Origin: Bryobacteraceae bacterium
Lineage (GTDB): Bacteria > Acidobacteriota > Terriglobia > Bryobacterales > Bryobacteraceae
Assembly: GCA_025062235.1 (NCBI GenBank)
Contig: JANXAE010000009.1
Coordinates: 1 to 41,519 of the forward strand
Direction of reading: 5' to 3'
DNA: 41,519 nt
The position numbers and the translations under genes are program-made. This document shows positions 29,342 to 31,469 of this stretch, in pieces (positions within the stretch are counted from its first letter, which is position 1; each line of letters starts with the position of its first letter). Under the pieces are notes generated by a model that saw only the letters and a program-made list of their open reading frames with translations, did not search any database and was not told the origin of the DNA.

Positions 29342-30619
29342 TCAGCGGGCTGCGGGCCGCCTGATCGCCGGAGCCGCCCGCACGGCCTCGACGCGCCGCG
29401 AGATCAAACCCAGATAGGCGGCAATTCCCAACAGGGAGATCAGCGCGGCGAGCCCCAGGGCCAGTGCGAACGAACCGGTCGCTTGCGCGATGTAGCCCGT
29501 CACCGCAGGCGCCAAGATGCCGCCAACGTTCCCGCCGAAATTTTGGATGCCGCTCACCGTGCCGACGATGCTGCGCTCGCACATGGCTTGGGTCAGAGTC
29601 CAGGTGTTGGGAGAGGCCAGCCCGAGAGCGCAAATCGAAAGGGTGAGCAGCCACACCGCCAGCATCTTGTCCTCGACCAGACCGGCCGGTGCGACCAGGC
29701 AGGCGATGCCGAGGCCGGCAACGATGAAGGTCTTGCGCACGGCCGTCTCCGGCAGCCCCCGGCGGATCAACCAGTCGCCAGCCAGTCCCGCCAGGACGAT
29801 TACCACGGACATCCCGAGATACGGCACCGAGCTGTAAAAGCCCATTTCCTTCGGCCCGAAGCCACGCTCCACGACCAGATATCCGGGAAGCCAGGTCACG
29901 AAAAGGAACCAGACGTAGTCGTAAGCGAAGAAGCCCAGGAAAATCCCCAGCACGGTGCGCTGGCGCAGCAACCCGATGCTGCGCACCAGCGAGAGGCGGG
30001 GCGCCGGCGGACCTGTCGGCTCCCCGGCCGCGCGGCTCTCGACGCGCCCCAGCAGGCGCCACCAAGGCAACAGCCAGATCATGGGCAGCAGGCCCGTCCA
30101 CAGAAAGAACGCCTTCCAACCGCGACTGGCCAGGAACAGGCCGCCCACCGCCGACACCAGCGCCTGCCCTAGCCGCACTCCGGTGAGATAGGCGGCCGTG
30201 ACCGAACCGCGCTCCCTCGGCTGGAACCAGTTGGCCACGGCGCGCGCGCTCGCTGGGAAGGCCACGGCCTGGCCGACGCCGAGCATGACGCGCACGACGA
30301 TCAGCGATAGCAGGTTCGTGGCGTAGGCGGTGGCCGCCGAAGCCAGCGACCAGAAGGCGAAGCCGGCGGCATAGGCGCGCCGCACTCCCAGGCGGTCCAC
30401 CAGCCAGCCGGCGGGGACTTGCAGGAACGAGTAGGCCCAGAAAAAAGCCGAAAGCAACAATCCCATGCCCGCCGGCGTGAGCCCGGTGTCTTTCATGAGG
30501 AACGGCGCAGCCACGGATATGGCTCCCCGCTGCGCGTAGGCCAGAATCATGGCCGCCACGAGCAGGGCGGCCAGCCACCATCTGCGTGCGGACTCTGCTG
30601 CGGGCTGCTGCGCTTCCAC
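29342..30619 (-). CDS. MFS transporter, anion:cation symporter (ACS) type
   Basis: A 425-residue major facilitator with about 12 membrane helices. The start is GTG 30619 because GGAGGT lies nine bases upstream; an in-frame ATG at 30649 has no ribosome site. Family marks are ILAYAQRGAISVAAPFL in helix 1, the A-like motif GWLVDRLGVRRAYAAG between helices 2 and 3, RVMLGVGQAVAFPASARAVA in helix 4 and the second-half GDWLIRRGLP. The R-G-x4-A-x-P pattern and the PASARAVANWFQPRERG stretch are typical of the ACS family that carries hexuronates, glucarate, galactonate or similar organic acids. The exact substrate cannot be told. The broken helicase loader gene lies 82 bases upstream on the same strand. 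Confidence 0.85.
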   Translation of the reverse strand: MEAQQPAAESARRWWLAALLVAAMILAYAQRGAISVAAPFLMKDTGLTPAGMGLLLSAFFWAYSFLQVPAGWLVDRLGVRRAYAAGFAFWSLASAATAYATNLLSLIVVRVMLGVGQAVAFPASARAVANWFQPRERGSVTAAYLTGVRLGQALVSAVGGLFLASRGWKAFFLWTGLLPMIWLLPWWRLLGRVESRAAGEPTGPPAPRLSLVRSIGLLRQRTVLGIFLGFFAYDYVWFLFVTWLPGYLVVERGFGPKEMGFYSSVPYLGMSVVIVLAGLAGDWLIRRGLPETAVRKTFIVAGLGIACLVAPAGLVEDKMLAVWLLTLSICALGLASPNTWTLTQAMCERSIVGTVSGIQNFGGNVGGILAPAVTGYIAQATGSFALALGLAALISLLGIAAYLGLISRRVEAVRAAPAIRRPAAR

Positions 30620-30701
30620 CGAAGGGCGACCTCCGATGGCGAGGAGCATAGCACAGGCGGCCGGGCTCCGGGCCCTACTGGCCGAAGCCTGCCCGCCCTG
30701 C

Positions 30702-31469
30702 TCAACGCGCCCGCGGCTTCAAACGGTAATCGCCCACCGAAGGCAGCCGCACGATGCGGCACATCTGGAACAGGCGCGAGCGGGCGCGGTCGCCGATGCG
30801 CTCGGCGAGGCTTGTGCGATAGCGCAGGCGCGCGCCCCATTAGGGCGAGCGTTAGAGCAGGTCGTCACCAGCTACCTCATCGGGCAGGTTCGTCGTCGCG
30901 ATGAGCGGCTTCTGGTAGTTGCAGCGGTGGGTCACGAACGCAGGGATCGTGTCCACGACCCATTCGGGGCCGCGCTGCGAACCGAGATCGTCGAGCAGCA
31001 GGACTTCGGCCTCCAGGGCCGTGCGGTATGCGTCGCGCTCGCTGGCGCCCGCGGCGGGATCCCAGCTTGCGCGGACGCGCGCCAGCAGGTCCTGGTAGTC
31101 GAAGAAAACGCCTTCGAAACCCCGCGCGATCAGCATTCGCAGGGCGGCCACGGCCAGATGCGTCTTGCCCGTGCCAGGGTCGCCCATCAGCAACAGGCCG
31201 GGTCTGTCCGGCTGCGGGAACTCTCGGACGTACGAGCGAACGGTCAGGACCGCGGCGGCCATTTGCCGGTAGGCGGCCGGATCCTCGGTCGGCAGGCGGA
31301 AGTTGTCCAGCGAGACGTGACGGTATAGCGGCGGGATCCCCGCCCGCTCCTCGATGGTCCGTAGCCGCTCGGCTTGCTGGCAAACACAGGGTTGGGCGGC
31401 GCTGATCCCCTCGCGCTCGACGATCTTCCAGCCCGTGCCGCCGCAGTCAGGGCAAAGCGGCTCGCTCAT
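30702..31469 (-). pseudogene. dnaC: DnaC/DnaI-like helicase loader ATPase interrupted by two in-frame TAA codons
   Basis: AAA+ ATPase of the DnaC/DnaI/IstB group, expected to load the replicative helicase. From ATG 31469 it reads an N-terminal zinc-type motif (LCPDCGGTGW and CVCQ), Walker A GDPGTGKTHLAVA, Walker B EVLLLDDLGS and KPLIATTNLPDEV. The frame then hits TAA at 30854-30852 (codon 206) and TAA at 30842-30840 (codon 210). Beyond these the same frame continues with the normal DnaC-family tail RYRTSLAERIGDRARSRLF and MCRIVRLPSVGDYRLKPRAR to a TGA at 30704-30702. So no frame shift is needed; two nonsense codons four apart break a 255-codon gene. Each TAA is one G-to-T step from GAA. Loss of the arginine-containing tail would remove sensor-region residues. 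A second copy may exist elsewhere, or this may be a sequence error or readthrough. Confidence 0.8.

Follow-up and report, generated by a model that had tools for sequence, protein, structure and literature searches.

A DnaC-like AAA+ ATPase gene of a Bryobacteraceae bacterium interrupted by two in-frame stop codons: probably a recent loss-of-function allele

The window described here, a stretch of 41,519 nucleotides from a Bryobacteraceae bacterium, carries on its minus strand a gene for a DnaC-like AAA+ ATPase that is interrupted by two in-frame TAA codons. The host contig, C264, belongs to a 3.2 Mb metagenome-assembled genome, obtained from environmental DNA, that is divided among 264 contigs and is 81% complete; the named genomes closest to it are likewise metagenome-assembled and belong to Bryobacteraceae. 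Read from 31469 to 30702, the gene consists of 205 codons, TAA, CGC TCG CCC, TAA, 45 codons and TGA, all in a single frame. Two genomes of the same genus (the congeners) carry full-length orthologues. The parts of the gene are as follows.

30702 to 31469, minus strand: interrupted gene for a DnaC-like AAA+ ATPase, with its start at 31469 and 255 sense or stop codons plus the terminal TGA, as defined by translation and the full-length congener orthologues
30855 to 31469, minus strand: the part still open, codons 1 to 205, defined by translation and a match to Pfam IstB_IS21
30852 to 30854, minus strand: first in-frame stop, TAA at codon 206, seen in translation; Glu in both congeners
30840 to 30842, minus strand: second in-frame stop, TAA at codon 210, seen in translation; Asp in both congeners
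30825 to 30854, minus strand: variable linker, codons 206 to 215, between sensor I and the conserved tail; indel-rich in an alignment of 30 sequences and also dense in changes in a congener
30702 to 30824, minus strand: conserved tail after the stops, codons 216 to 255 plus the terminal TGA, with R228, R232, the strand at 237 to 241 and DYR249

A first-pass annotation of this DNA had placed the TAA codons at 206 and 210, and translation agrees with its coordinates and numbering; the strand, which it left unstated, is minus. It had also described a normal tail reached without a frame shift, as the 45 in-frame codons confirm. Interruption by a frame shift or an indel was rejected, since neither is present relative to the congeners. 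The further remark that both TAA codons are one base from GAA carries less weight than it seems to: alignment with the congeners places Glu in both at the first site, but at the second the sense codon in both is GAC (Asp), two bases from TAA.

The open part of the gene encodes a Cys4 ribbon (C6, C9, C28 and C30), a Walker A motif (GDPGTGKT, residues 96-103), a Walker B motif (LLLDD, 157-161) and sensor I (TTN, 192-194). The four cysteines of the N-terminal CxxC...CxC ribbon are invariant in 19 sequences. The tail holds the arginine coupler (R228), the arginine finger (R232), the last core strand (237-241) and sensor II (DYR249). IstB_IS21 is the Pfam match above cut-off, and the motifs of the DnaC/IstB AAA+ clade (GDPGTGKTH, LLLDD and TTN) are all present; in the read-through frame R228, R232 and DYR249 match GERVMDR and DSYR of E. 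coli DnaC. Scores for the DnaC equivalog NF005931 (61 bits, cut-off 357) and the DnaI equivalog NF006505 (38 bits, cut-off 228) are low, as they are for the intact congener protein (63 and 41 bits, both also below). Because these values lie far under the curated cut-offs, the term helicase loader describes a resemblance, and a loader function of this acidobacterial protein is a prediction from that resemblance. DnaB is present and intact in this genome.

This ATPase is nearly ubiquitous in the surrounding lineages. Of 61 near genomes 60 have an orthologue, as do 190 of the 200 family genomes and 235 of the 247 phylum genomes; in the phylum set, some of the weakest matches are probably paralogues. 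Among the matches listed at these three levels, the copy in the window is the sole one with internal stops. The two same-genus orthologues are intact, identical in length and without indels, and are 87% and 80% identical to the read-through form over all 255 residues, which excludes a chance open reading frame. Both before and after the stops, differences from them fall mainly at third codon positions. Both stops fall within the linker between TTN and the tail, which is weakly conserved and indel-rich in the family alignment of 30 sequences; near-invariant tail residues in 19 relatives are G226, R228, S231, R232, M236, C237, D247 and R249. A search for a second intact copy, as the annotation had suggested, found none in the 81%-complete assembly. 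A separate difference lies at codon 176 (30942-30944), where Thr or Asn in all 29 other aligned relatives is replaced by Pro (T176P) inside a predicted helix. This may be a second lesion or chance.

The consequences of truncation can be judged from E. coli DnaC, from which the roles of the tail motifs as arginine coupler, arginine finger and sensor II are taken (PMC8213410). R228, R232 and R249 correspond to R216, R220 and R237 of that protein, an assignment made by motif (GERxxxR and DxYR), as the profile alignment covers only residues 36-197. In E. coli, changes of R220 or R237 abolish ATPase activity, and R216 is important both to replication and to viability (PMC8213410). The encoded product of 205 residues lacks the arginine finger and sensor II, both of which lie 3' of the stops. 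Since the tail motifs and the last strand are found only beyond the stops, this product should not work as an AAA+ ATPase. If translation ends after residue 205, the product would retain the zinc-ribbon-like N-terminus, Walker A, Walker B and sensor I. The arginine coupler and the arginine finger would be missing from it, as would sensor II and the last strand of the central sheet. Such a protein would be unable, as an oligomer, to hydrolyse ATP, and it is probably unstable. The intact congener has an AlphaFold model with a pLDDT of 86, and the 205-residue product folded from its single sequence gave a pLDDT of 38, an unusable model.

A shortened protein could in principle be useful in its own right, for example by binding ATP or a partner without hydrolysis, with the tail dispensable. 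The ribbon, Walker A, Walker B and sensor I are all intact in it, and codons 90-205 have been constrained on this branch (22 synonymous and 3 nonsynonymous changes). However, near-invariant residues and the last strand of the sheet sit in the discarded tail, the counterparts of the two arginines needed for ATPase activity in E. coli DnaC (PMC8213410) are among what is lost, and no short version exists among the relatives listed. Relatives with such a form and no tail homology were what the annotation had named as refuting a broken gene. A functional short form is on these grounds highly improbable.

The annotation had also raised stop readthrough, by which both TAA codons would be passed to give a short and a tailed protein. 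That the tail is in frame and conserved is as this would require, but little else at the locus agrees with it. The stops are absent from relatives, among the matches listed; RNA folding around them is ordinary compared with shuffled sequences (z = 0.28), with no sign of a recoding signal in this comparison; and no suppressor occurs among the 5 tRNAs in the 0.88 of 3.2 Mb scanned (27% of the genome). The TAA codon ends about 20 of 236 normal genes, in keeping with the annotation's statement that TAA is a normal stop and the code unchanged, and the need to pass two stops multiplies the loss. Readthrough is scarcely credible here. Separate translation of the tail was also rejected: there is no in-frame ATG, GTG or TTG at its head, and the only nearby ATG overlaps the second TAA (TAATG) in another frame. 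The open reading frame opened there has 97 codons and matches only itself in this genome.

The age of the interruption was estimated from substitutions on each branch, polarised with the second congener as outgroup and with the linker excluded. This branch carries 14 nonsynonymous and 41 synonymous substitutions, and the sister branch 12 and 42. There is no nonsynonymous excess relative to the sister, which agrees with a disruption only if that is very young. Release from selection over 10% of the branch would predict 22 nonsynonymous changes (P = 0.04 for observing at most 14); release over 15% gives P = 0.003. Purifying selection has therefore been normal elsewhere in the gene, and either the stops are not real or they arose recently, within no more than about the last 10% of the branch. 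Over 10% of the branch about 0.5 nonsense changes are expected. A single complex mutation event was considered and dropped: the cluster of 4 changes in 5 bp at codons 210-211 has a counterpart in a congener's linker and is not special.

The gene is probably a recent loss-of-function allele, i.e., a young pseudogene, of a resident Acidobacteriota DnaC-like AAA+ ATPase. The observations are two internal stops, orthologues that are intact, motifs lost from the product, no second copy in the assembly and normal constraint on the rest of the gene; from these, loss of function and recency are inferred. Of the three options that the annotation had listed (recent loss, readthrough and a sequencing fault), recent loss fits best with the near-universal intact orthologues, the preserved constraint and the single copy in the assembly; readthrough is unsupported, and a fault is less likely. 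Nonsense mutations would have arisen in the linker that joins sensor I to the C-terminal block of motifs, a region under weak constraint. Against recent loss, two stops 4 codons apart with no other excess damage are a little unlikely, and it is possible that a second copy lies in the missing 19% of the genome. The disruption is that of an ordinary broken gene and involves no new mechanism.

A local fault of consensus or assembly would leave the real gene intact, with the linker sequence either called wrongly or taken from a minor strain of a mixed population. The source is a draft metagenome assembly, constraint on the rest of the gene is normal and decay is not seen, as expected of an intact gene, and the stops lie near each other, as one bad local stretch would produce. 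As a proxy for noise, 0.88 Mb of this genome was compared with 1.7 Mb of a congener over 260 orthologous coding stretches (101,066 codons). This gene alone had clear mid-gene stops; other flagged stops were judged to be upstream extensions or shadow frames, and no real interruption was found in the rest of the window against the congener. With the sole clear mid-gene stop in so many codons, general assembly noise is a poor explanation, and a generally noisy assembly was rejected. The stretch has no frame shift and no N, and both flanking genes keep the congener's gene order, which also speaks against a fault confined to this place. A local fault is a tenable but less than even prospect, clearly short of recent inactivation.

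One neighbour may have a history of its own. The MFS transporter gene at 29342-30649 adjoins the broken gene. Both congeners also have an MFS gene in this position, but its identity to the one here is just about 36%, and its orientation with respect to the DnaC-like gene is the opposite. The DNA match to the congeners resumes at about 30700. This looks like replacement of the MFS gene with an edge at the 3' end of the broken gene.

Tolerance of such a loss would depend on a second candidate loader, DciA. DciA has been described as the ancestral loader, and dciA as lost upon the arrival of dnaC or dnaI; Acidobacteria are not among the phyla listed there with domesticated dna[CI] (PMC5109545). 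DciA (PF05258) was found in 57 of 61 near genomes, both congeners included, and over cut-off in 157 of 247 genomes of the phylum. The DnaC-like gene and DciA coexist in many Acidobacteriota genomes. In one family (f28), DciA is matched in 24 of 24 sampled genomes while matches to the DnaC-like protein are weak or missing, so that a DciA-only state is viable. The annotation had called the gene essential-looking; its near-universal presence in the phylum supports that description, and this family, with DciA instead of a clear copy, does not. In the genome studied here, the congener's dciA interval falls exactly between the ends of contigs C166 (32525) and C252 (13115). Loss of DciA as well was rejected since the flanking matches run right up to where these contigs stop; the apparent absence of DciA is best taken as an assembly gap, and DciA is probably present. 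Loss of the DnaC-like ATPase would then be tolerated because DciA is probably there, with its locus in the gap.

It is unlikely that the loss extends to a whole population or lineage, which would have given up a DnaC-like ATPase kept by nearly all Acidobacteriota, many of them alongside DciA. If true, it would be a natural experiment showing which of the two coexisting candidates for helicase loader a cell requires; a strain that does without the DnaC-like ATPase would point to its being dispensable where there is DciA. Of greater interest than the stops is the coexistence of the two across much of the phylum. That the intact gene is near-universal and often found with DciA contrasts with the published account (PMC5109545) and gives the case a mild importance.

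The closest solved relative is DnaC of Aquifex aeolicus (3ECC, 3EC2), which has the AAA+ fold and the order of motifs in common with this protein. It matches the intact congener with a phmmer E of 2.4e-24 over congener residues 70-240, and 3ECC superimposes on the congener's AlphaFold model with Z 22.9 and rmsd 2.5 for 177 residues aligned within 46-248. Unlike the Aquifex protein, the window's copy ends before the arginine finger, and a loader role of the acidobacterial protein is putative. E. coli DnaC (6QEL, 6QEM) and Bacillus DnaI share the AAA+ core (profile-comparison probability 99.2, residues 36-197) and the tail motifs GERxxxR and DxYR with the window gene. In contrast to both, the window protein has a short Cys4 ribbon at its N-terminus, and the intact protein falls far under their equivalog cut-offs. 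IstB, the helper ATPase of IS21 elements, belongs to the same AAA+ subfamily. Unlike IS21 IstB, the window gene is single-copy, has a gene order conserved with the congeners and scores far below the curated cut-off of the IS21 helper model. Young bacterial pseudogenes likewise are orthologues of conserved genes that carry internal stops but are otherwise constrained; distinctive here is that both stops lie near each other within a single short linker.
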